From Nitrospinae bacterium bin107 (lineage in GTDB: Bacteria; UBA8248), in contig MPNJ01000012.1 of the NCBI GenBank assembly GCA_002238965.1, positions 52,190 to 116,189 on the forward strand: a stretch of DNA of 64,000 bases. The letters are read 5' to 3'. The translations under genes and the position numbers were made by a program. Within the stretch, counting starts at the first letter, position 1; the number at the start of each line of letters is the position of its first letter. The notes under the pieces were generated by a model. The model did not search any database. It worked only from the letters and a program-made list of their open reading frames with translations, and was not told the DNA's origin. Below are positions 6,053-61,265 of this stretch, in pieces.

Positions 6053-6445
6053 TCAGAGAACGTCCTCGCTTTCGAGCAGCACCTTGGCCTTCGCGTCGTC
6101 ATCCGCTGTGAGGGCGACGTTCGCGTAACCGGCGTGGCGGTTCAGGATGTGCATGCTCTGGATGTTCACGCCGGCGACCTTGAATTTCTCCGCCACCTTG
6201 GCGAGAGCGCCCGGCTCGTCGCGCAGCCTGATGACCGTCGCCTCGTCCGAGATCGCGCGGAAGCCCGCGTTCATGAGCACGCGCAGGGCGCGATCGGGCT
6301 CGTTCGTGGTGAGGATGACGACGCCTTTCTCGCCGGCAACCTCGGTGTTGATCGCCTCGATGTTGATGGATTCATCAGCCAGCGCCTTGCTGATATCCGC
6401 GATGACGCCGACCTCGTCGCGCACCGTGATGATGATTCGATTCAT
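6053..6445 (-). CDS. Tandem ACT-domain protein
   Basis: The 130-residue protein consists of two ACT ligand-binding folds. The first (about 3-68) begins IIITVRDEVGVIADISKAL and the second (about 72-128) contains RDEPGALAKVAEKFKVAGV, both with the characteristic D/E-x-x-G-x-L/I turn that binds amino acids. There is no catalytic domain. It starts 12 bases after the histidine decarboxylase stop on the same strand, so the two are probably co-transcribed. A role in sensing histidine or another amino acid for that enzyme is inference. The frame starts at ATG 6445 after GAGGATTCTGG. Confidence 0.85.
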   Translation of the reverse strand: MNRIIITVRDEVGVIADISKALADESINIEAINTEVAGEKGVVILTTNEPDRALRVLMNAGFRAISDEATVIRLRDEPGALAKVAEKFKVAGVNIQSMHILNRHAGYANVALTADDDAKAKVLLESEDVL

Positions 6446-6457
6446 CCAGAATCCTCC

Positions 6458-7588
6458 TCAGGCCGTTTGCCTGTGTTTATGCTTCACGCAGTCGTCGACG
6501 AACTCGTTCACCATCTCGCGCGTGACGTGCGGCATGGTGATGATGTGGGCGATGTCTCCCAGCGGCGCGATCTGCCACTTGCGCATCACCTCGGCCGGGG
6601 GTCTCGGAAAAACGACCGTCACCGAGTTCTTGTGACGCCAGGCAGGGATGCCGAACTCGCCAAAGCGCTCGACTGCGTACGCGGCGACAGCCAGCATCTC
6701 CTTCACGAGTTCCCGGAACCCGTCCATCCCCAGGCGCTCGAAGGCGTACCACAGCATGAGCGGCGTAAGCCCGCTGCGCGAGCCGGGTAGCGTCGTGTCG
6801 AGCACGCCGACGTATTCTATCGAGCGCGCGATGCGCGCCACGTAATCGCGCTTCGTCAGCACGACGCCGCAGGGCAGCGGACAGCCGATGAGCTTGTGGC
6901 CGCTGATGGAGACGCTGTCGAAACCGGCGTCGAAGCCGTAGGGCTGCGGGTCGTCGACGAAGGGCAGGATCATGCCGCTCAGGGCGGCGTCGGCGTGGAT
7001 GTAGGCGTTCGTGACCGCCAGGTCGTCCAGGATGCCGCGCACCCTGCTCACGTCGTCCACGGCGCCTTTCATCGTGGAGCCGATGTTCGCCATGAAGATG
7101 ACGGGAGAATCGCGGTGGATGCGGATGGTCTCGCGGAGGTCCTCGTAGTCGATTTCTCCGTTTTCCTGACTTTTGATCATGATGTTGCGCACGTTCAGCA
7201 CGCGCAGAATCTTGAGGACGCTGTAGTGCGTGTCCTGGGAGAAATAGACCACCCCGTCCGGGAACAGTTCGCGCCCCATGTAGATGCCGTACATGTTGCC
7301 CTCGGTTCCGCCGGAGGTGACGTAGCCCCAGGCGTGTTCCTGCTCCAGGCGCATCAACGAGGCGAACCGGGCGATGACCTCGCGCTCGATCTCATGGGTA
7401 TTGCTGCGGAAATTGCTGTCGTGAAAGGGGTCGCCCACGTTGTTGAGGCTGTATTCCATGAAGGGCAGTAAATCCGAGTAATCGAAATTCTGGTTGCAGG
7501 GATAACCCACCTGGAGCCTGCTCAGTTCCTCGAATTCGCTTCTCAAGGCGTCGAGATGCGCCCTGGTGAGTGGATTCGGTTCGTTCAT
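6458..7588 (-). CDS. hdc: Histidine decarboxylase, PLP-dependent
   Basis: The 376-residue protein closely matches the Gram-negative PLP-dependent histidine decarboxylases, which convert L-histidine to histamine and CO2, in length and motifs: NQNFDYSDL (32-40), GYVTSGGTEGNMYG (88-101) for phosphate binding, H121 in DTHYSV stacking on the cofactor, D200 in IHADAALSG, and the Schiff-base lysine K232 in SISGHKLIG. The start at ATG 7588 fits the family N-terminus. It is followed by an ACT-domain gene and is divergent from the nuo operon. Related serine or glutamate decarboxylases are possible, but the whole-length resemblance to Hdc is strong. Histamine could feed a siderophore or signalling route, but none is visible here. 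Confidence 0.9.
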   Translation of the reverse strand: MNEPNPLTRAHLDALRSEFEELSRLQVGYPCNQNFDYSDLLPFMEYSLNNVGDPFHDSNFRSNTHEIEREVIARFASLMRLEQEHAWGYVTSGGTEGNMYGIYMGRELFPDGVVYFSQDTHYSVLKILRVLNVRNIMIKSQENGEIDYEDLRETIRIHRDSPVIFMANIGSTMKGAVDDVSRVRGILDDLAVTNAYIHADAALSGMILPFVDDPQPYGFDAGFDSVSISGHKLIGCPLPCGVVLTKRDYVARIARSIEYVGVLDTTLPGSRSGLTPLMLWYAFERLGMDGFRELVKEMLAVAAYAVERFGEFGIPAWRHKNSVTVVFPRPPAEVMRKWQIAPLGDIAHIITMPHVTREMVNEFVDDCVKHKHRQTA

Positions 7589-47288: not shown

Positions 47289-48323
47289 ATGTACCGTAAA
47301 TTGTTGATTTCTTGTATAAGCGCGTTCTTGTTCAGCTTAGGGTTGTGGTTTGCCGCAGCTCAATTTGGCGTGTCGAGTTCGGCTTACGCTCAGGAGTGGC
47401 CTTCTCGTCCCCTTACAATGGTCGTGCCCGCACGCGCGGGCGGCGGTAACGACCGGGCTGCCCGGCTCATGTCGCGGTTCTTGAGTAAAGAACTGGGCCA
47501 GCCTATCAAAGTTATAAACAAGCCGGGAGGGGGCAATCTGCTAGGACATCTTCATTTCCTCAAACAGAAGGACGACGGCTATACGCTCCTTCGCACCACG
47601 ACGATGCCTTTCTTGGCCCTCAATACGATCCTGCAAGGTGCCAAATTTAAGGTTTCTGATTTCGACCCCATCAATCTGCCGGAGCAAGGTTTCTCGTTAA
47701 TAGCCACGTCGAAGGGCTCACCCTACAAGACCATTTACGACGTGATTGACGCAATCCGCGCCAATCCCGGTAAAGTCAGTGTTGGCCTTGAGCCAACCGA
47801 TGCGGCGATGTTCAACTTCCAGACACTGCTGACGGGGCTTGGACTCTCAATCGATAACGTCAGGGTAGTAACCTATGATAGTGGAGGTCCGTTGCGCACC
47901 GGCATCATAGGTGGACAATTTGATATTGGAGTAACAGGGACCCAGGGAAGCGAACATTTGATTAGCGAGTGGCGACCGTTGCTCGTCTTTGCCCCCAAAA
48001 AGATCGAGCCATGGAATGGATGGGGCGTTCCTATGATTGGGGATGTTGCGAAGAAAATTGGTTTTAAATTTGACCGCGTTCTGGGTGGCTCGCTACAGGG
48101 ATATCTCGTCCACGCGACTTTGAAGAATAAGCATCCCGACCGGTATAAAAAGTTGGTCGAGATATTCAAGAAAATCTCCACCGATCCAAAAGCGATCGAA
48201 GCACACAAGGGAGCAAAATTAGCGATTAGTTGGGTGGGACCAGCTAAATCGAAAAAAATAATGATGGGTCAATACGAGATACTTCTCGATCCCAAAGTAC
48301 ACAACGTATTTAGACCGAAATAA
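47289..48323 (+). CDS. tctC: Tripartite tricarboxylate transporter substrate-binding protein (TctC/Bug family)
   Basis: The 344-residue periplasmic binding protein has a signal peptide cleaved at about SAYA-QEW (residue 34), then the Bug-family start WPSRPLTMVVPARAGGGNDR and KVINKPGGGNLLGHLHFLKQ. The family binds citrate, other carboxylates, aromatic acids or amino acids. It is followed by a strong terminator and then tctB and tctA, the usual order, with the binding protein expressed more highly. Codon use and G+C differ visibly from the nuo genes, consistent with transfer. Confidence 0.9.
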   Translation: MYRKLLISCISAFLFSLGLWFAAAQFGVSSSAYAQEWPSRPLTMVVPARAGGGNDRAARLMSRFLSKELGQPIKVINKPGGGNLLGHLHFLKQKDDGYTLLRTTTMPFLALNTILQGAKFKVSDFDPINLPEQGFSLIATSKGSPYKTIYDVIDAIRANPGKVSVGLEPTDAAMFNFQTLLTGLGLSIDNVRVVTYDSGGPLRTGIIGGQFDIGVTGTQGSEHLISEWRPLLVFAPKKIEPWNGWGVPMIGDVAKKIGFKFDRVLGGSLQGYLVHATLKNKHPDRYKKLVEIFKKISTDPKAIEAHKGAKLAISWVGPAKSKKIMMGQYEILLDPKVHNVFRPK

Positions 48324-48330
48324 CGAATCG

Positions 48331-48369
48331 ACCGGGGGCGGCTTCGGCCGCCCCGGTTGCATTTTTTCC
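48331..48369 (+). terminator. Intrinsic terminator after tctC
   Basis: ACCGGGGGCGGC pairs with GCCGCCCCGGT around a TTCG tetraloop (48331-48357, one bulged G), followed by TGCATTTTTTCC. It is a textbook Rho-independent terminator lying within the tct operon, probably reducing tctBA relative to tctC. Confidence 0.88.
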
Positions 48370-48382
48370 GAAAAGTGACGCT

Positions 48383-48871
48383 ATGGTTCTGTTCAGATAT
48401 CGGGTAAGCGCCGAATGGGGTCACATTGCATTTGTCACCGCTATCGCGATTACTTGCTTGATTTATATTTTCGATACGCTGTCCGTATCTCATCACATTA
48501 ATAATATCATACTGGTTGTTCCCTTCGCCGGCCTTACCATGCTGCTCTGTGTCTGGGTAGTAATAAGCGGGATTCGCATCCGCAGAGTCGTTCCGGACGT
48601 CACAAATGGCCAGGATCAAACCATAGGCACGGAGGATAAACAGGCACTTGCCAAGCCCATCGCATTGATGGCGCTTACAGGTGTCTACGTCGTTATCATT
48701 GAATTTGTGGGACTGGACATAGCTTCTTTTGCATTTCTTATAGTTGTTCTGATATTACTTGGGGAGAGGCGGCCTTTTTTCGTTTTGTGTTACGCACTAA
48801 TTTTCACACTTATAGTAGTCGGTGGCACAGGCGCGCTTATTCCCTATCCCATTCCAATGACTCTTCTGTAA
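48383..48871 (+). CDS. tctB: Tripartite tricarboxylate transporter small membrane subunit TctB
   Basis: The 162-residue protein has four predicted helices (about 14-32, 42-62, 93-110, 115-150), matching TctB size and position between tctC and tctA. Sequence conservation of the family is low, so assignment rests on topology and context. ATG 48383 lies just after the tctC terminator and has only a weak ribosome site. Confidence 0.82.
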   Translation: MVLFRYRVSAEWGHIAFVTAIAITCLIYIFDTLSVSHHINNIILVVPFAGLTMLLCVWVVISGIRIRRVVPDVTNGQDQTIGTEDKQALAKPIALMALTGVYVVIIEFVGLDIASFAFLIVVLILLGERRPFFVLCYALIFTLIVVGGTGALIPYPIPMTLL

Positions 48872-48889
48872 TGCGCGGGTACTGACGTC

Positions 48890-50401
48890 GTGATTGATCT
48901 GGAGGCCGCAAATAGCGCTCTCTCAATGATGTTCAGTTCCTGGCAGATTTGGGCGGTCCTCGTGCCTGGTCTGCTCATAGGTTTGACGGCCGGAGCCTTG
49001 ATCGGCGTGCAGAACCCCATGGCAATGGCGATTTGCTTGCCGCTGACCCTGTACATGGATTTTCTGCCGGCAGTCATGCTACTGACAGCCATCTTCACTG
49101 GTGCTGGTTTCGGTGGCGCGATCACCTCCGTTCTGATGGGAATTCCGGGAACCAGCTCGTGTGTGGCCACAACATTCGATGGCTATCCCATGGCGCAGCA
49201 GGGCAAGCACAATGAGGCTCTGGGGATCGCGCTGCTGAGTTCCTCATTCGGCGTGTTATTTGGTTATATGGTTTTATTTCTCTTGATCGTCCCTCTCAGC
49301 CGCTGGGTGTTGAAGCTCGGACCGGTCGAGATGCTGTTCGTTGCGCTCTGGGGCCTGTCTACGCTGGCTGCCCTCGGGGGAAAATTCATGAGTCGCGGTT
49401 TCATTGCCGCACTTTTCGGCGTTCTTTTGGGGACCGTTGGAATGAACACTAGCGGATATATACGCGGCACCGCGGGAATCAGTTTCCTGCTTGAAGGCAT
49501 TCCTTTCGTACCGGCGATGATGGGTATGTTCGCGGCCAGCCAATTGTTCGAGTTGGTCGGAGTAAAATTCTTGGTACAGGACGAGTCGTTACGCCGAGCC
49601 GACTTTGGCAAGATCATGGGTACCGTTCGGTGGCTTAAAAAAATCCCATTCCTGCTGCTGCGGGGCTCCCTCGTTGGCACTTTCATCGGTGCTATCCCAG
49701 GCATCGGTTCATCGCTCGCAAATCTTGTCTCATATGCCGAGACCAAACGGATGGATCGCGATCCTGACAGCTTCGGCAAAGGTAACCCGAAGGGTGTGGC
49801 CGCCTCAGAAAGTGCTAACAGCAGCTCCGAAGGGGGATCAATGGTGATTACCCTTGCTCTTGGGATTCCCGGCGGCGCAGGCACGGCAATGCTGCTGGTA
49901 GCCTTTGGTATGCACAATGTTATCGGTGGACCTCAATTCATTAGCAACAACATGGACATCGTATATGTGATTATTTTCGGCAATTTCGCGCAGGCGGGCA
50001 TTCTCTTGGTTGTCGGGCTTCTGTTTATTTCGGTAGCTGGAAATATTGTGAGGCTTCCACTATCGATCCTTATACCCTCGGTTTTAGTCCTGTCGGTCGT
50101 CGGCGCATATGCAGTTACAGGAGATATAGCGGGGCCGATTACCTTGTTCGCGTTTGCGGTATTTGGTTGGTTGATGAAGCGCTTTGACTATCCTATAGCA
50201 GCGACGGTGGTTGGCTTAGTGCTTGGTCGAATGGTCGAAAGTGAACTGATCCGATCGTATCAGCTGAGTGCTGGCGACATTCTGTTTCTGTTGGAACGCC
50301 CGGTGGCTTTAGTATTTGCGGTGCTGTTAATTCTTTCGTTGTGCCAGCCTCTGATATTCAAGGCATTTCGATTAAAGCGAGATTTCATAGCGGACGATTA
50401 G
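48890..50401 (+). CDS. tctA: Tripartite tricarboxylate transporter large membrane subunit TctA
   Basis: The 503-residue permease has about 12 helices with the family motifs PGLLIGLTAGALIGVQNPMA, FGGAITSVLMGIPGTSSCVA, KMPFLL-like region, IGAIPGIGSSLANLVSYAE and ASESANSSSEGGSMVITLAL. Start GTG 48890 fits the family N-terminus, though the ribosome site is weak. It uses a sodium or proton gradient with TctC delivering the ligand. The gene ends the operon; a nested inverted repeat lies 38 bases downstream. Confidence 0.9.
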   Translation: MIDLEAANSALSMMFSSWQIWAVLVPGLLIGLTAGALIGVQNPMAMAICLPLTLYMDFLPAVMLLTAIFTGAGFGGAITSVLMGIPGTSSCVATTFDGYPMAQQGKHNEALGIALLSSSFGVLFGYMVLFLLIVPLSRWVLKLGPVEMLFVALWGLSTLAALGGKFMSRGFIAALFGVLLGTVGMNTSGYIRGTAGISFLLEGIPFVPAMMGMFAASQLFELVGVKFLVQDESLRRADFGKIMGTVRWLKKIPFLLLRGSLVGTFIGAIPGIGSSLANLVSYAETKRMDRDPDSFGKGNPKGVAASESANSSSEGGSMVITLALGIPGGAGTAMLLVAFGMHNVIGGPQFISNNMDIVYVIIFGNFAQAGILLVVGLLFISVAGNIVRLPLSILIPSVLVLSVVGAYAVTGDIAGPITLFAFAVFGWLMKRFDYPIAATVVGLVLGRMVESELIRSYQLSAGDILFLLERPVALVFAVLLILSLCQPLIFKAFRLKRDFIADD

Positions 50402-51452: not shown

Positions 51453-52037
51453 TTATTTATCAATCAGTTGTTTGAGCAGGGCAGGCGCATCCCGGAGGCT
51501 GCGAAGCGTCAGATCACTGGGAATCGAGGAGCGTTCCGTCAGGTGGACCGACAACATTCCCGCCGCTTTGGCGGCCATCATGTCATATTTCCCGTCGCCG
51601 ATGACGACGCATTTTTCAGGCGATACGCCGATCGCCTCGGCGCCTGCAAGCATGGGTCTCGGGTCCGGCTTCCAGTAGCCGATATCCCGTGTGATCAGGA
51701 CTTCGAAAGAGATGTTTATTTTTTTCACCATTTTCAGAACGTGCCGCTCCGCATTGTTCGTAACGACGCCGAAGGGGATTTTTCTGGTTCGCAGGTACGC
51801 AATCAAAGCATGCGAGCCATCGTTGGCCTCCGCGATGTCGGCGGCTTTAAGCTCATGTTTTTCAAGGATATCCGATATTTCACGCGCTCGCTCGGGAGAG
51901 AGCGTAGGGAGATAATCCAGAATGGATACCTCCTCGTCGAGCAATTCCATCTCCTCTTTCATGGTGGGCCAGTCAAAGGCGGGTTTCGTGAGCGTGCCGT
52001 CAAAATCGAGCAGCACACCCTCCATGGCTCGTTTCAT
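51453..52037 (-). CDS. HAD-superfamily phosphatase (HAD-IA type)
   Basis: The 194-residue protein has the four HAD motifs: LLDFDGTLT with the nucleophilic aspartate near the start, VVTNNAE, K in YWKPDPRPM, and VVIGDGKYDMMAAKAAG. It should hydrolyse a small phosphate ester. ATG 52037 with GGGAGCGAGG is preferred to an ATG 42 bases upstream inside the previous gene. It starts 10 bases after the AIR-synthase-family gene, so the two are an operon and could act on a common phosphorylated metabolite, which is inference. Confidence 0.87.
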   Translation of the reverse strand: MKRAMEGVLLDFDGTLTKPAFDWPTMKEEMELLDEEVSILDYLPTLSPERAREISDILEKHELKAADIAEANDGSHALIAYLRTRKIPFGVVTNNAERHVLKMVKKINISFEVLITRDIGYWKPDPRPMLAGAEAIGVSPEKCVVIGDGKYDMMAAKAAGMLSVHLTERSSIPSDLTLRSLRDAPALLKQLIDK

Positions 52038-52047
52038 CCTCGCTCCC

Positions 52048-53061
52048 TTACAGCACTTTTGAAATTTCGTCGGAATCAAAACGCCTAAGCGGAGAAGTTT
52101 TCCCGTCGCGCCGAATCATCACTCCTGAATCAGGCGCGCATAACCTGCCGATTTGCACACCCATTGCACCCGTCGCCATGAGCGCTTCCCGAACGGTTTC
52201 TTCCCCTTCCGCCGGAACCGCCAGCAAGAGCGCTCCCGATGTAATGACACCTAAAGGGTCCAGATTCAATGCCTTGCAGATCTTCCCCCCTTCAAAGGAA
52301 ATGGGTATGTTGTTCTCCTCAACAATGGCTCCCAGGCCGGCGGCCTCCGCCATTTCATGGATGCCGGTGGCCATCCCTCCTTCGGTCGGGTCGTGCATCG
52401 CGTGCACCTGGCCTGTACCGGCCGCCGCCAAAGCTTGCGCCACCACGCTGATGCCGGGAGATTCCAGGTTTTTTTTCGCATTTTCCAGTATTTCGACATC
52501 CATATGGTTTTTCAGAAAATCGTATTTCGCATCCGCCAGGATAGCCGTTCCCTCCACAGGTATGGGACGCGTAAGCAGAATTAAATCATCTACTTGCGCG
52601 TCTGCGCCGCGTACCAGATTCTCCTTCGATACTTCCCCCAGCATATGGCCCGAAAGAATCGGAAATTCCAGTCCCGAGGTAATCTCCGTATGTCCGCCGC
52701 ATATGGTGATGTCCAAATCGGCGCATGCATCTTCCACCTCTTCCCAAATACGGCTTATCATCGCCTCGTCAGCGCGTCCTTCCGGCAGAAGCAGGGTCAT
52801 CAGGAACCACAAAGGAGTAGCGCCCATGCAGGCGATGTCGTTCGCGTTTACGTGTACGGCATAGCGGCCGATGTGGTTTTCCACAAACGTGATGGGGTCT
52901 GATTTCGCGACGAGATAGCGCTCTCCCATGTCGATGACGGCTGCGTCTTCTCCAATCTTTGGGCCCACTACAAGACGCGGGTGCGAACTTGCGCTCTTGA
53001 GCAGATTATCCAGTACATCTGTCGGAAGTTTACCCACTGGAAATGGAGGCTGTTTTACCAT
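52048..53061 (-). CDS. AIR-synthase-family protein (PurM/HypE/SelD/ThiL superfamily), HypE-like
   Basis: The 337-residue protein shows the superfamily pattern of ATP-dependent enzymes: FPVGKLPTDVLDNLL (7-21), GPKIGEDAAVI (33-43, ATP loop), VHVNANDIACMGATPLWFLM with the metal-binding aspartate, and MHDPTEGGMATGIHEMAEAA. It resembles HypE-like AIR synthases. It lacks the HypE C-terminal carbamoyl-acceptor cysteine (the protein ends DEISKVL) and the N-terminal Cys/Sec-Lys of selenophosphate synthetase, so it is neither typical HypE nor SelD. The reaction is unknown. ATG 53061 has GCAGGAAG upstream. Confidence 0.8.
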   Translation of the reverse strand: MVKQPPFPVGKLPTDVLDNLLKSASSHPRLVVGPKIGEDAAVIDMGERYLVAKSDPITFVENHIGRYAVHVNANDIACMGATPLWFLMTLLLPEGRADEAMISRIWEEVEDACADLDITICGGHTEITSGLEFPILSGHMLGEVSKENLVRGADAQVDDLILLTRPIPVEGTAILADAKYDFLKNHMDVEILENAKKNLESPGISVVAQALAAAGTGQVHAMHDPTEGGMATGIHEMAEAAGLGAIVEENNIPISFEGGKICKALNLDPLGVITSGALLLAVPAEGEETVREALMATGAMGVQIGRLCAPDSGVMIRRDGKTSPLRRFDSDEISKVL

Positions 53062-53115
53062 CTTCCTGCCATAGGGAGGAGGCTTTTCACATCAAGAGCA
53101 CAATGCGTTTTCGTG

Positions 53116-53144
53116 TTGACGCCCGGGTTGGGGCGTTTTAGAAT
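53116..53144 (+). promoter_or_regulatory. Sigma70-type promoter for tRNA-Phe
   Basis: TTGACG (53116-53121), a 17-base spacer and TAGAAT (53139-53144) match consensus at 5 of 6 positions each. Transcription would begin about 90 bases before the tRNA. A leader hairpin AAGGCA/TGCCTT lies between them. Confidence 0.65.
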
Positions 53145-53241
53145 CCCGTCTTTCCCGTAAAGGCATGGAAACTCTTGCCTTTTGGGGCAAATGAGTCGAT
53201 AAGGAACAACCCTTGGTTGTCCGTTGATTGCTCCACATACT

Positions 53242-53317
<76 letters not shown>

Positions 53318-53335
53318 GAAACCCTCTCGTTCGCG

Positions 53336-53899
53336 TCAATTCGTGTCCGTAATTCCTTTCAGTTCAAGGTTTTTTCCGTTTAACTCAACCGTGCTCGTGA
53401 GCGGAACGGCCGTCTGAACCATCTGCTCGGCATAGCAGCCCTGTTTCGCCAATTGAATGATGTTCAGGATTTTATCTTCCGTCTCGTTCGATTCGACTTT
53501 GAAATGCGTGCGCACCCTCCGGCATCCAGAATTCACATCGCCCTTGAGGACGGAACCTTTCAGGAAATAATCGAATTCCACGCGGCAGGTGGCCTTCTCG
53601 AAGGTCGTTTTCGTCATATGGGCGTACCGCCCAAGCTGGGTCAACAGTCAGAAGCCGACTCCCATGGCGATGTAGGTGAGGGGCTGTGGATACCTGTCCT
53701 CTCCTCCGATGCGTGGCGGTTCGTCGCTGAAAACTTCAAAGTGCCGGAATCGCCCGATTTTGAGTTGTCCATCGTCCATCGTTTCCGTCTCTGCGAGCAT
53801 GGTGATCTCATAACCGTCTTTTGGAAGTTCGGGTTTATCGATCGGCCGCTCGCCGGGCACAGAGCTCTCATGCCAGGGATAATTGATGCTTTCGACCAT
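53336..53899 (-). CDS. OsmC-like selenoprotein (in-frame UGA read as Sec84)
   Basis: ATG 53899 (GGAGGA ribosome site) opens 83 codons up to TGA 53648-53650. The same frame then continues 103 codons to TGA 53336-53338. Across the first TGA the protein reads PLTYIAMGVGF-U-LLTQLGRYA, placing Sec84 exactly where OsmC-family proteins have their first redox cysteine. The second, Cys155 in LAKQGCYAEQM, is conserved. Both halves together give 187 residues with an OsmC alpha/beta layout. OsmC/Ohr proteins reduce hydroperoxides or bind thiols; a Sec version has been described from marine metagenome surveys. The DinB-like gene lies 67 bases upstream on the same strand. Confidence 0.85.
53619..53633 (-). 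promoter_or_regulatory. Candidate bacterial SECIS hairpin downstream of UGA 53648-53650
   Basis: A perfect 6-bp stem (TGGGCG/CGCCCA) closes a GTA loop on the minus strand. The stem starts 14 nt after the UGA and the loop lies 20 nt after it. The loop contains GU next to a G-rich stem, as in known bacterial elements recognised by SelB. Confidence 0.65.
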
Positions 53900-53966
53900 C
53901 TTTGAATGTCCTCCAGGGTTTGGATGCGTAAGATGCTATTCCCAAAACTGTTTGTTTATATTGTTT

Positions 53967-54638
53967 TTATTCCCATCTCAGCACACGGATGTAACCCTCT
54001 TGCGGTATCTGGACGAGCGGCTCCACGCCTTCCTCTTTCTTGTGCATCTGGATGGTTTTGAGATGCGCATACGCTTCCCAGAGCATGTGTCGGAACGTGT
54101 ATTCGAGGTTGAAGTGAAACAGCTCCGCATCGTCGGGGTCGATCCAAACGCCGGTGCAGTGGGCCTTGAGTGTGACGTTTTCGCGCCACCTGCGCACGTC
54201 CTCGCCGGTTCCGGGCCGTATCTTACCCACCGGCACTCGCTCTGTGATATGTCTCCCGTCCCGGATGGATTCGGTCGTCTCGCCTCCCAGCACCTCCCAG
54301 GCGAGGGCGAACGAGTCCCGCATGACGCCGATAAGGTCTTGAATCTGCGGGCAATACGCCTCTTTCATCATTCGCCCGTCGAAGCGCTCGAAGAGTTCCT
54401 TATCGCGCGGGAGGTCGTCTCCGAAGAGTATTTCCCCCCAGCGAATCAGCAGCCACCGGTAGGGCAGAGACGCCACGTGGCTCGCCTGATCCCGGATGGA
54501 CCAAAGGCCCCAGCTCTTCTCGTCTCTCGTTCTGCGCAATACCTCCTCGGGGAGGCCGCGCGTTTCTCGCTCATATAAATCAGTGACTTGCGAGATTTCG
54601 GGGAACAGCGCGCGCGCTGGATTTCCTCGTTCCTGCAT
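53967..54638 (-). CDS. DinB-like four-helix-bundle protein
   Basis: The 223-residue protein has helices typical of the DinB/YfiT metal-binding superfamily: SWGLWSIRDQASHVASLPYR in helix 2 with a putative metal-ligand histidine, and FRHMLWEAYAHLKTIQMHK near the C-terminus with two more. Such proteins often act as thiol-dependent transferases or hydrolases, usually uncharacterised. The ATG at 54638 is chosen because GGAGGAATCCAGAAG precedes it, whereas an in-frame ATG at 54716 has no ribosome site. It may be co-transcribed with the OsmC-like selenoprotein. Confidence 0.7.
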   Translation of the reverse strand: MQERGNPARALFPEISQVTDLYERETRGLPEEVLRRTRDEKSWGLWSIRDQASHVASLPYRWLLIRWGEILFGDDLPRDKELFERFDGRMMKEAYCPQIQDLIGVMRDSFALAWEVLGGETTESIRDGRHITERVPVGKIRPGTGEDVRRWRENVTLKAHCTGVWIDPDDAELFHFNLEYTFRHMLWEAYAHLKTIQMHKKEEGVEPLVQIPQEGYIRVLRWE

Positions 54639-55002
54639 CTTCTGGATTCCTCCGGTCGAACGTGCAGTTCCCCGCATTTCCGCGCATTCGCCGTTATCGC
54701 GGGAGCCGCTGTCCATGGCAGAATCCTCATGCGTCGCGGTTCTGCGGCGTCATTTCCCAGGAAAATAAATTTTCAGTTTTTTATCGAATTACCCCGTTAA
54801 TTTATCTGATTTTATCGATATTTACGGAAATTCATTTTTCCTTATCGATTTCATTGCGAAGCGACACCATACCTGAGCCGGAACTTCGCCGCCACGGGCA
54901 GATGCGAGCAAATGCGCCCCGCCTCCTCACGGGAAGGGAGCGGATTCATCGGGTCTCAAGAGCGCCCTTCGCCCCGATTCGCCGGTGAGCAGTCTGCTTC
55001 TT
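54639..55002. other. AT-rich intergenic region
   Basis: About 360 bases, notably AT-rich between 54760 and 54850, between the TSUP stop and the DinB-like start. It should contain the promoter of the DinB/OsmC pair. I do not see a clear -35/-10 on the minus strand or a terminator for the TSUP gene. Confidence 0.45.
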
Positions 55003-55920: not shown

Positions 55921-56126
55921 ACAGGCGGAAACGGAAGGCCCAGCCACCGGCGCGACCGCAGTCGGTGAGACCGTTTTACCCTTCGACTCGTCCATCCGAC
56001 GAACGTTTCCCCAAGATACATTCGAACGCATGTCCTCGTTCACGGCGCGAGCCGATCTGTAGGCTCGGATTCGATGGGGACCAAATACGACATGGCAACT
56101 CTCCGGTCGCACAAGGGCCGTTCGCC

Positions 56127-59100
56127 ATGAGGGTGGACGGCGCGTCGGTTTCAGGAAAGGACAATTCCTTTCGTCCCCGCTGTCTGTCGGTAGACCTGGA
56201 GGTCAGCAGAAATGCTGTTATCCGCGCCTTGGGCGCGGTGCGCGCGGATACCGGCGAAAGCCTGACGCATTCCGGCGGCGGCTTGACGGCCGCGCTGGAA
56301 AAGCTCGACGACCTCGCCGAGGGGGCGTCATTCATTCTGGGTCACAACTTGATCGCCTTTGACCTTCCGCACCTCACGGCAGCGAAACCCGGCCTGCGGC
56401 TGTTGAAGCTGCCCGTGGTGGACACGCTTCGCCTCAGCCCACTCGCCTTTCCCCGCAATCCGTATCATCGCCTGGTCAAGCACTACCAGGACGGCGGTCT
56501 CAGGCGCGGACGAATCAACGACCCGGAGCTCGACTCCCGCCTCGCGCTGGAAGTCTTCGCCGATCAGCGCAAAGAGCTTCGGAAGGCGCAGCCGGACCTG
56601 CTGGCGGCTTGGCACTGGCTGACCACGCCGGAGTATGAAGGCGCGGACCGCGCCCTGGACGATCTGTTCACAGCGCTCCGTAGATCGCGCCGTCCGTCGG
56701 ATGCCGAGGCCCGCGCGGCGATAAACCGTCGCCTGGAGGACGTCGCCTGCGTGACATACGGGCGCGAGATCCTGGCGGAGGCGGACAAGCGGGGCTGGGC
56801 GCTGGCCTACGCCTTGGCGTGGCTTTCGGTGGCCGGTGGCAACTCCGTCATGCCGCCTTGGGTTCGCCACCAGTTCCCGCAAGCGGGAGAGCTGGTGCGC
56901 CGTCTCCGGGATACCGCCTGCGTAGATCCCGCCTGCGGCTGGTGCCGCGAGATGCACGACGCCCGCAAGGAGCTCAAGCGCTGGTTCGGTTTCGACGATT
57001 TCCGCCCGGAACCTGCGGACGATGAAGGGTGCCCCATGCAGCAGGCCGTCGTCGAGGCGGCGATGGGCGGGGAGCACGTCCTCGGCATCCTGCCCACGGG
57101 AACCGGCAAGTCTATCTGCTACCAGGTTCCCGCGCTCTCGCGCTACGAGAAGACAGGCGCCCTCACTGTGGTCATCTCGCCCCTGGTCGCGCTGATGGCC
57201 GATCAGGTGGCCGGTCTGGAAGAGAGCGACGTCGATTGCTGCGTGACCATCAACGGGCTTTTGTCGATGCCCGAACGAGCGGACGCGCTCGACCGGGTGC
57301 GGCTGGGGGACGCGGGCATCCTGATCGTCTCGCCGGAGCAACTCCGCTCCCGTTCCCTTCGCCGGGCGCTCGACCAGCGGGAGATCGGCGCCTGGGTGGT
57401 GGACGAGGCCCACTGCGTGTCGCAATGGGGGCACGACTTCCGGCCCGACTACCGTTACGTGGGCCGCTTCATCCGGAAGAAGGCGGGCGAGGGGCCGGTA
57501 CCCCCCGTGCTGTGCCTGACCGCGACCGCGAGGCCCGGTGTCGTCGAGGACGTTGCGCGGCACTTCCGTGAGAAGGTCGGGGTCGAGTTGAAGGTGTTTG
57601 ACGGCGGCGCGGAAAGACCCAATCTGACGTTCGAGGTCATCCCGACTTCGGGGGGCGAGAAGTTCGCCCACGTCCACCAGATGCTGGAATCGCACCTGCC
57701 GTCTGATAAGCCCGGCGGCGCCATCGTCTACTGCGCGACGCGGCAGGGCAGCGAGGATATCGCCGAGTACCTGAAACAGAAGGGCGTGGAGGCGGAGCAT
57801 TTTCACGCGGGCCTCTCGCCGGAGATCAAGAAGGACGTGCAGCGCCGCTTCATCAAGGGTGAGTTGCGCGCCATCGCGGCGACCAACGCCTTCGGTATGG
57901 GGATCGACAAGCCGGACGTGCGCCTGGTCGTCCACGCCGACATTCCGGGGTCGCTGGAGCACTATTTCCAGGAGGCGGGCCGCGCTGGGCGGGATCGGGA
58001 ATCGGCGCGGTGCGTGCTGCTCTACACGGAGGACGACGTGGAGCGCCGGTTCGGCATGTCGGCCCGCTCGCGTCTCACCCGGCGGGAGATACACGGCATT
58101 CTCCGGGCCTTGCGCAGCCTGGACCGCAAGAAACACGCCGGCGGCGAGGTGGTGGCCACGGAGGGCGAGATACTGGGGGAGGACGAGGAAAACGCGTTCG
58201 AGCGGGATTCGGCCACCGACGATACCCGGGTGCGAACCGCCGTCGCCTGGCTGGAGGAATCCGAACTGCTGACCCGCGAAGAGAACGTGGTGCATGTATT
58301 CCCCTCCTCGCTCCAGGTGCGTTCGGTCGAAGAGGCCAAGGAACGGCTCGGGAGGGCGGACATTACCCAGGACTATCGCCGCCGGTTGCTGCGCATCGTC
58401 GAAACACTCATCGACGCCCCCCCGGACGATGGCGTCAGTACCGATGAACTGATGACGGTCTCGGGGCTGAGTCCCGAGGGCGTGCGTGGCGCATTGCACG
58501 ATCTGGAGCGGCTGCGCATCTCCAGCAACGATACCGCGCTGACTGCGTTCATCCACGCCGGCGTGGAGCGCAGCTCCCGAAAGCGCCTCGAAGAAGCGGT
58601 GGCCTTGGAGACCGCCCTGATCGCGCACATGCGCGAGGCGGCACCGGGTATGGGCAAGGGAGATGCGTCGCCGCTTCACCTGCGCATCGCCTCTCAGAAA
58701 CTCAGGGATGACGAATTGCCCGACCCGCTGCCGGAACGCCTGTGGCGCATCGTCCGCGGCATTGCCCGGGATGGCCGAGGCGAGGACGGTGCAGGCGGAA
58801 GCCTGACGGTGCGGAAACGGGACGCGGAGACGGCGCATGTGACGCTGCGCCGGGAGTGGGGAGACTTGGAGGAGACCGCCGAACGCCGGCGCGAGGCTGC
58901 CTCACGGCTGCTGGAACACCTACTCGACTGCCTGCCTACCGGGAGTCGAGGCGTGGATCTGCTGGCGGAAACCACGCTCGGGAAACTGCTGGCGGCGATC
59001 GAATCCGACCTGATCCTGAAGAGCAGGGTCCGACACCCCGAGAAACTCCTCGACCGCGCCCTGCTGTGGCTGCACGAGATGGAGGTCATCCGCCTGAACA

Positions 59101-61265
59101 AGGGCCTCGCCGTGTTCCGCCGCGCCATGACCATTCGCCTGGAACGCCGGGAGCGGCGCGGCTTCGCGAATGCGGACTTCGAACCCCTCGCGCTTCATTA
59201 CAAGGGACAGGTGTTGCACGTACATGTCATGGCGGAGTTCGCCGAGCGCGGCCGCGACGCCATGAGCGAAGCGCTTCGCCTCGCCATGGATTACTTCACC
59301 ATGCATGAGGAGGCGTTTCTCGCGCGCTGGCTACCGGGCCGGGACAGGGAGATCGGACGCCAGACCACGCCTGCATCATGGCAAGCCATCGTCCGAAGCC
59401 TGAACAACCCCGTCCAGCAGCGCATCGTCGCCGATGCCCGCGAGCAGACGAATGTGCTGGTGCTCGCGGGTCCCGGCTCGGGCAAGACGCGGGTCCTTGT
59501 GCACCGCATTGCCTGGCTGATCCGCGTGAGGCGGGAGAACGCCCGCAGCATCCTGGCCCTGGCCTACAACCGCCACGCGGCAGTCGACGTCCGCCGCCGC
59601 CTCGGGGAGTTGCTCGGAGACGACGCCAGAGGCGTGACCGTTCTCACCTGTCACGCCCTGGCGATGCGCTTGGCCGGGTTCAGCTTCATGAGTCGGGCGG
59701 AGCGCCCGGATGACGATGTGTTCTCTGAGATCATCACACGCGCAGTGGATTTGTTGCGCGGAGAGGGCTTGCCGCCGGAGGAGGCGGATGAGCAACGCGA
59801 GCGCCTGCTGGCGGGTTTCCGGTGGATACTGGTGGACGAATACCAGGACATCGCAACCGATCAGTACGAGTTGATATCAGCCTTGGCCGGCCGGACGCTC
59901 GATGACGAGGACGGCAAGCTCACCCTGTTCGCGGTAGGAGACGACGACCAGAACATCTACGCATTCAACGGCGCCTCGGTGGAGTTCATCCGCCGCTTCG
60001 AAGCGGACTACGGACCCAAACCCGTCTATCTCACGGCGAACTACCGCTCCACTGCCCACGTCGTGGCGGCTGCCAACGCGGTGATCGAACCGTCACGGGA
60101 GAGGATGAAGGTAGACCATCCCATCCACGTCAACCGGGCGCGCGAAAAGGACCCGCCGGGCGGCGCGTGGGAAGAACTGGACCCGGTCTCGCGAGGGCGG
60201 GTGCAAATACTGCCGGCGGGCCGCGACCCGATCCATCAGGCGCAGGCCGTCATGGCGGAACTACGGCGCCTCGCGTCGGTTGCGCGGGAGGATTGGGACT
60301 GGTCCCGTTGCGCGGTGCTCGCGCGCGAGCGGAAGTATTTGGCGCCGCTTCGCGCATTCTGTGAAGCGCACGGTGTTCCGGTTCAGATGGGGGACGAGGA
60401 GATTCCGGGTTTCTGGCATCTGCGGGAGATCCGCGCATTCCTCGAATGGCTGCGCGCGCGCAAGCCCCGCGTCGTCGACGGGGCGGCTCTCAAGAACCGG
60501 GTGGAAAGATACCCGTCCGGTCCCTGGTACGATCTGCTGCGCCAGGCCGTCGAGGAACACGCGTTGGAAACCGGCGGAGCGGAGACGCCGGTGGATCACT
60601 TGATCGAATGGCTGGCGGAATGGGGTAGGGGCATAAGGAAGCGGCAGCGTGGCCTCCTGTTGTCGACTGCTCATGGCGCCAAGGGATTGGAATTCGACCA
60701 CGTGGCCGTGCTGGACGGCGGGTGGGAACGCGTTGGGTGCGGTGAGGATGAGGACGCGCCGCGCCGTCTGTACTACGTGGCCATGACGCGCGCCCGGCAG
60801 ACCCTGACGCTCGCGCGGTTCGACGAGACCCACGGGTTCGCGGACGAATTGACCGGCCATCCCTCCGTGATACACCGCGAACCGATCGAGCTTCCGCCCG
60901 GCCCTGAGTCGCTCGGGTATCACTACGTCCGGCCCGCTCTCCGGGATGTGGACCTGGGTTTCGCCGGACGCCGGAGCGTCCGCGATCCGGTTCACCATGC
61001 CATCGCCGGTCTGTCGCCGGGCGACCCGCTCGATACGGGCATCACGACTCGGGGACGGTGGGAATTGATGGACAGGAAGGGCGCGGTGGTGGGGCGTCTC
61101 GCCGCTGGTTTCCAGCCCCCGCCCGGAACCCGTTGCCGCTCCGCCGAAGTGTGGGCCGTCACCGGGTGGAGCCGTGAGGCTTCCAAGCCTGAGTATTACG
61201 ACTCCATAAAATGCGACGCCTGGGAGGTGATCGTGCCGGAACTCGTATTCGAGCCGGTTTCGTGA
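56127..61265 (+). CDS. Exonuclease-RecQ-UvrD fusion helicase
   Basis: The 1712-residue protein has three parts. Residues about 15-150 are a DEDD-type 3'-5' exonuclease: SVDLEV (D22, E24), [14 protein letters not shown] (N and D near 73-78) and [11 protein letters not shown] (131-141). Residues about 280-650 are a RecQ helicase: [14 protein letters not shown] (about 322-335), [19 protein letters not shown] (about 424) and [12 protein letters not shown]. About 1090-1590 form a UvrD/Rep-type helicase: [10 protein letters not shown] (about 1113), VDEYQD (about 1236), [12 protein letters not shown] (about 1271), [14 protein letters not shown] and [10 protein letters not shown] (about 1548). The RecQ zinc-binding cysteines are missing. 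ATG 56127 gives the first domain cleanly. A DNA repair or anti-element role is inference. Confidence 0.88.

Follow-up and report, generated by a model that had tools for sequence, protein, structure and literature searches.

Introduction

OsmC-like selenoproteins have been known since 2005, when a study of the Sargasso Sea by Zhang, Fomenko and Gladyshev described a set of three such sequences, gave for them the motif U-x-x-T (where U is selenocysteine, Sec), and reported the Sec forms as sporadic beside widespread cysteine homologues (PMC1088965). The same motif appears in an ocean survey of 2008, whose table holds five OsmC-like selenoproteins in its first count column (PMC2398784), and in reviews of 2022 (PMC9312934) and 2026 (PMC13188914), in which OsmC is mentioned once each, as a UxxT family. 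An NCBIfam model, NF041052.1, also exists under the name 'OsmC-related (seleno)protein'. The Ohr proteins, which share the OsmC domain, employ a two-Cys chemistry with lipoyl reduction (PMC4486171).

The gene considered here lies on the minus strand of the window, a stretch of 64,000 nucleotides from the draft genome of Nitrospinae bacterium bin107, and is interrupted by an in-frame TGA. The find is sound, but since the gene matches NF041052 and carries a motif that had already been published, its kind was known before and it is not a discovery. Our reading, to which we assign a probability of about 0.8, is that the gene is a member of NF041052 in which UGA84 is predicted to be read as Sec, likely directed by the hairpin that follows it, and that its product would employ a peroxidase mechanism involving Sec84 and Cys155.

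The gene and its reading frame

The gene (53336..53899, minus strand) comprises 187 codons and a TGA stop, running from an ATG at 53899-53897 to the terminal TGA at 53338-53336, and is preceded by GGAGG (53910..53914), a likely Shine-Dalgarno sequence 10 nt ahead of the ATG that is found in all seven genus members with printed sequence. The interrupting TGA (53650-53648) is codon 84, the predicted Sec84 and first residue of the U-x-x-T motif; the frame remains open for 103 further codons, and when TGA is translated as U the protein runs ...AMGVGF-U-LLTQLGR... The preliminary description had placed this TGA at the cysteine position of the OsmC core, with 103 codons to follow and a second cysteine retained, all of which was reproduced: the codon for Cys155, the predicted resolving cysteine, lies at 53435..53437 (minus strand), and the residue is present in all 72 Sec members and all ten Cys forms collected, being invariant in our alignment A2 (58 of the 72 Sec members and the ten Cys forms). 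It had further predicted that gene callers would split the gene, and the list of open reading frames (ORFs) indeed shows two entries in its place, of 83 and 102 aa, which makes this a clean example of a genuine gene divided by gene callers. An antisense ORF of 150 aa (53453-53905, plus strand) overlaps most of the gene and could be a trap for such programs. On the strand of the gene, neither a promoter nor a terminator was predicted, and the scans for them returned nothing above shuffled sequences.

A lone TGA within a frame is not in itself beyond chance, since 156 frames with a TGA between open stretches occur in the window. Among ten others, chosen by eye from the 40 longest of the 156, Pfam matches were obtained in three, with no single domain spanning the TGA. 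One frame (6056-7588, minus strand) carries a PLP-decarboxylase domain before its TGA and an ACT domain after it, for which the simplest reading is that of two adjacent genes sharing one frame. What lifts the TGA of the OsmC-like gene above chance is homology, namely a Cys/Sec column held in 72 of 72 members and the covariation of the hairpin, both described below.

The gene belongs to the known NF041052 family: the read-through protein scores 161.7 bits with this model (cut-off 95), its sole NCBIfam match, and residues U84-L-L-T87 fit the family motif [U/C]-x-x-T, in which T87 is invariant in A2. The OsmC domain model PF02566 recognizes the read-through protein with 46.7 bits, the downstream half alone with 27.7 bits (cut-off 27.5), and the upstream half not at all. 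An AlphaFold2 model of the protein (pLDDT 92.6) displays the OsmC fold. Among solved structures the best sequence match is 3cje, a Jannaschia OsmC-like protein (E 9.7e-19 with profile A2), which also has Cys-x-x-Thr-Gln and a second cysteine within KKGCF.

Conservation of the TGA among relatives

NF041052 matches above the cut-off were found in 20 of 98 genomes, including that of the window, and all 74 such matches listed carry exactly one TGA each. Seventy-two of them were fetched, the fragments G012:C92 and G017:C212 being left out and eight rows from overlapping loci being removed as repeats, and in these 72 distinct members the TGA occupies the same column without exception. A wider search of 386 genomes, in which up to ten candidates per genome were scored, yielded 75 matches at E<=1e-27 spread over 22 carriers, each match with one TGA; the phylum searches around G065 and G048 covered one genome each. 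On contigs of named genomes, the best 80 of 117 relatives all showed at least one frame with U at the site, and of the 85 frames that these loci provided, 81 show U within the standard motif and three (identified by eye) within a variant of it, the last one being a fragment that lacks the Sec site. The same best 80 of 117 belong to Nitrospinota and Candidatus Tectomicrobia metagenome-assembled genomes (MAGs), to many Betaproteobacteria MAGs, to a few SAR202/Dehalococcoidia, and to some others. The Sec form thus extends to many uncultured Betaproteobacteria MAGs and to some SAR202 genomes (loci L139-L193).

In protein-database homologues, alignment at the first redox cysteine places Cys in the Sec column in ten of 12 cases, so that the cysteine-containing relatives proposed as a check on the Sec assignment do exist; the other two carry Trp (P0012) and Ser (P0013), of which the Trp may represent a TGA rendered as such by the annotator. 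The preliminary description had named orthologues with a residue other than Cys or Sec at position 84 as evidence against its reading, and these two of the 12 homologues count on that side.

A hairpin downstream of the UGA

Published limits for bSECIS hairpins are a loop of 3-9 nt with a G within its first two positions, a stem of 4-16 bp, a distance of 16-37 nt from the UGA, and a minimum free energy at or below -7.5 kcal/mol (PMC13188914). The predicted hairpin of this gene (53619..53633, minus strand), with pairs from U18-A32 to G23-C27 as numbered from the U of UGA, falls within all of them, having a GUA loop of 3 nt (53627-53625) that begins with G, a stem of 6 bp, 20 nt between UGA and loop, and a folding energy of -11.2 kcal/mol over 50 nt. 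The 6-bp hairpin with a GTA loop that had been described at the expected distance is therefore present and, as shown by the comparisons that follow, covaries. The stability of this single gene's hairpin is z -1.23, with 23 of 200 shuffled sequences folding equally well. An Rfam search of 53000-54300 returned a tRNA and sub-threshold chance matches only, with no bSECIS family matched.

Among the 72 members (69 distinct rows), four of the six pairs are altered on both sides; cells in hairpin columns are paired in 92.8% of cases versus 82.3% in shuffled alignments, cells altered on both sides number 30 versus 6.2 in shuffles, and the covariation score is 0.234 versus 0.057 in shuffles and at most 0.056 when the hairpin is slid along the alignment. 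Of the 69 rows, 21 lack the outermost pair and eight the one next to it. Codon usage points in the same direction. When 107 distinct sequences from both fetches were counted, one had Gly in place of the Ala at U+9, and the third base of the Ala codon was able to pair in 105 of the remaining 106, as against a mean of 77.7 and a maximum of 88 in 10,000 shuffles. The choice of Ala codon follows the codon at U+6: GCG at U+6 is accompanied by GCG at U+9 in 78 of 79 cases, GGG by GCC or GCT in 12 of 12, GAG or AAG by GCT in four of four, and TCG or ACG by GCG in 11 of 11. In addition, CGG encodes the Arg at U+7 in 71 of 71 cases but only 197 of 625 in the remainder of these genes, and for Tyr at U+8 the codon is TAC in 70 of 71 versus 172 of 302. 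Since this pairing bias falls on silent codon positions, it is strong evidence that the RNA stem is under selection. Twelve Cys-type OsmC genes, which are distant relatives rather than close Cys forms and in which Cys was placed by a crude pattern, retain between one and five of the six pairs at the same offset.

Selenocysteine machinery and alternative readings of the TGA

The absence of Sec machinery from the genome had been named as an observation that would count against the Sec reading, and all four components were found: tRNA-Sec (75.9 bits, anticodon TCA), SelA (576 bits), SelB (385.7 bits) and SelD (333.9 bits). The Rfam tRNA-Sec model also matched below its cut-off at nine other places in the genome and recognized all 14 controls, five of them above the cut-off; because the controls matched too, only the single genomic match above the cut-off was used. 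SelB exceeds its cut-off in 16 of the 20 carrier genomes, and the four others are 79, 91, 70 and 67% complete, with one SelB cut at a contig start. The SelD gene (G000:C32:206681-207643) is itself a predicted selenoprotein gene, with an in-frame TGA at GG-U-GSK. Taken with the Cys column and the covarying hairpin, these genes provide strong evidence for Sec at codon 84, and support the earlier assignment at the level of a prediction of Sec insertion.

Two other explanations of the TGA deserve consideration, and both are very improbable. The gene could be a pseudogene in which a nonsense mutation converted a Cys codon (TGC or TGT) into TGA, as the two ORFs seen by a gene caller and the unexceptional stability of the single hairpin (z -1.23) would allow. 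Comparison of the window gene with six genus orthologues gives dN 0-0.014 and dS 0.69-0.93 for the 60 codons before the TGA, and dN 0.03-0.06 and dS 0.36-0.62 after it, so that dN/dS is 0-0.02 before and approximately 0.07-0.14 after; constraint is evident on either side of the TGA, and is weaker downstream. This somewhat weaker constraint after the TGA is what decay might produce, but both ratios are far below 1, and a nonsense mutation does not account for a TGA shared by 72 of 72 distinct relatives, for hairpin covariation, or for the Sec genes of the genome. UGA could instead be an ordinary sense codon throughout the genome, read as Trp or Gly, a notion to which the Trp at the site in P0012 lends some colour and which has hardly any chance of being correct, given that a tRNA-Sec is present, that the UGA falls on the Cys column, and that the gene itself ends in TGA. 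Past the UGA, the first stop is TAA in 27 family members, TGA in 22 and TAG in 22, with one unreadable, and since 22 of the 71 readable stops are TGA, this codon very likely still acts as a terminator. The reading of codon 84 as Sec is thus the one retained below.

Genomic context

Upstream of the gene, at a distance of 67 bp, lies a gene for a weakly DinB_2-like protein (53967..54716, minus strand; PF12867 E 0.21, below the cut-off), and downstream a gene for an AIR-synthase-related protein (52048..53061, minus strand), whose nearest families are HypE, SelD and ThiL, all below their cut-offs. The latter is not SelD, whose gene is located in another part of the genome. An HAD hydrolase gene (51453-52079) lies beside it. 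Between the OsmC-like and AIR-synthase-related genes is a tRNA gene (53242..53314, plus strand; RF00005, 71.8 bits), hence called tRNA-Phe from its anticodon GAA, read by sight. Seven genus loci share the upstream DinB_2-like gene and the downstream AIR-synthase-related and HAD genes.

No recurrent neighbour family that might hint at a substrate was found across 29 representatives: the commonest, TctC, accounts for three of 81 ORFs (E<=1e-8) among the first 25 of 74 families listed, and the others for two or one. For this analysis 86 ORFs were picked, one of more than 900 aa was left off the list of 85, and 81 were analysed, those left out comprising two repeats and two more, one of which is likely part of an OsmC gene. 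Clustering of all neighbouring ORFs was swamped by antisense ORFs and was kept for the genus context only. Elsewhere in the window, three genes at 47289-50401 (plus strand) resemble by eye a tripartite tricarboxylate transporter set (TctC, TctB, TctA), and a frame of 1766 aa at 55965-61265 (plus strand) appears by eye to combine RecQ-like and UvrD-like helicases with an exonuclease-like start.

Paralogues and a second OsmC branch

The three NF041052 paralogues of the genome do not group together in the tree, and each is accompanied by orthologues from the genus; the duplications are therefore likely to be older than the genus. Copy numbers reach ten and a fragment in genome G012 and six in G008, G010 and G017, and some copies, all with TGA, lie close together on one contig (G013:C69, G015:C177, G010:C4, G012:C120). 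In a midpoint-rooted tree of 111 Sec, ten Cys and four outside rows, from which P0012 and P0013 were left out, nine of the Cys forms branch apart from the Sec rows and the tenth (P0004) among them, with partial support and a long-branch warning.

A fourth OsmC gene of the same genome, unannotated (L015:1501-1893; G000:C31:59656-60048), has its TGA at HAG-U-GLYTLLG. The TGA and a predicted hairpin occur in seven of seven loci (L015, L095-L100), which were selected because of their TGA and whose hairpins are folds of single sequences. When 98 genomes were searched separately, these seven loci came back as the close matches (69-99% identity, one TGA in each), together with five distant matches (27-32%), of which none has a TGA and one has a TAG. 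The HAG-U protein scores 59.2 bits with NF041052, below the cut-off, and a protein-database search yielded two proteins only, both of them fragments that start after the TGA. In the literature searched that joins OsmC with selenoprotein or selenocysteine, no second OsmC selenoprotein branch was found, and the deep-Sep paper (PMC12013277) does not name OsmC in its main text; the HAG-U genes may represent an undescribed selenoprotein branch. Searches for OsmC selenoproteins or the selenoproteome of this lineage (Nitrospinota/Tectomicrobia, sponge) returned no literature, and PMC13188914 does not mention the lineage.

Proposed function

Hydroperoxide reduction by the protein is plausible. In the scheme proposed, the hairpin would be bound by SelB together with Sec-tRNA, and Sec84 inserted. 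An organic or related hydroperoxide would oxidise the selenolate of Sec84, placed on the central OsmC helix. A selenenylsulfide between the oxidised residue and the invariant Cys155 would follow, and this bond would be reduced by a cellular dithiol, either a lipoyl protein or thioredoxin, as for Ohr. As in selenoenzymes generally, Sec at the position of Cys would likely accelerate the reaction and confer resistance to over-oxidation. The three paralogues of this genome, and the ten or more of one relative, might serve as parallel detoxification enzymes in a genome that yielded no Ohr: the Ohr model TIGR03561 matched neither the window protein at E<=0.001 nor the draft genome, which is 95.9% complete.

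The peroxidatic role stays conditional because the NPE and CP motifs of Ohr are absent by sequence, and this same absence favours an alternative that has a real, if minority, chance of being correct, in which the product contains Sec yet is no peroxidase, and would work instead as a selenol reductase or transferase whose targets are disulfides, persulfides or electrophiles of catabolic pathways. The connection to catabolism is drawn because the paralogues sit among varied catabolic genes: TctC receptors, amidases, TPP enzymes and a CoA-transferase are found beside them, and no shared partner emerges. Many paralogues per genome, and nearest solved relatives (3cje and 2opl) that bear generic names only, are likewise compatible with such a role, but the OsmC fold, the position of the catalytic cysteine and the second cysteine are all shared with the hydroperoxide resistance proteins, and 3cje is titled an OsmC-like hydroperoxide resistance protein, which is a title only. 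The Sec84-Cys155 peroxidase is thus the function we prefer.

A broader proposal, which we consider unlikely, is that this uncultured lineage of Nitrospinota/Tectomicrobia type has exchanged Ohr for a Sec-only OsmC system, with at least ten NF041052 selenoenzymes in some members and the HAG-U-GL branch in seven genomes, each serving for the hydroperoxides of a different catabolic pathway. If OsmC-like selenoproteins did replace Ohr, selenium supply would set the peroxide tolerance of these bacteria.

Comparison with known OsmC systems

In comparison with the Ohr/OsmC hydroperoxide resistance proteins of PF02566, in which the first redox residue is Cys, the window protein carries Sec at this position, and approximately 30 extra residues at its N-terminus (alignments begin at model residues 26-34 in most rows). 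The first Cys of Ohr is preceded by NPEQL and the second lies in VCP (PMC4486171), whereas the corresponding sequences here are YPQPL and GCY. With this gene, a predicted selenoprotein family gains a well-supported member; the literature searched yielded no experiment on the family, including on Sec in an OsmC protein. With the OsmC-like selenoproteins of the Sargasso Sea and NF041052.1 the gene shares Sec in U-x-x-T at the Cys column, and with the former also a bSECIS-like hairpin 3' of the UGA (PMC1088965). Unlike that set of 2005, the gene comes from a lineage that has Nitrospinota and Candidatus Tectomicrobia MAGs as its named relatives, and from a genome with three paralogues; and while Sec forms were reported there as sporadic, in this lineage all members above the cut-off carry the TGA, in multiple copies.
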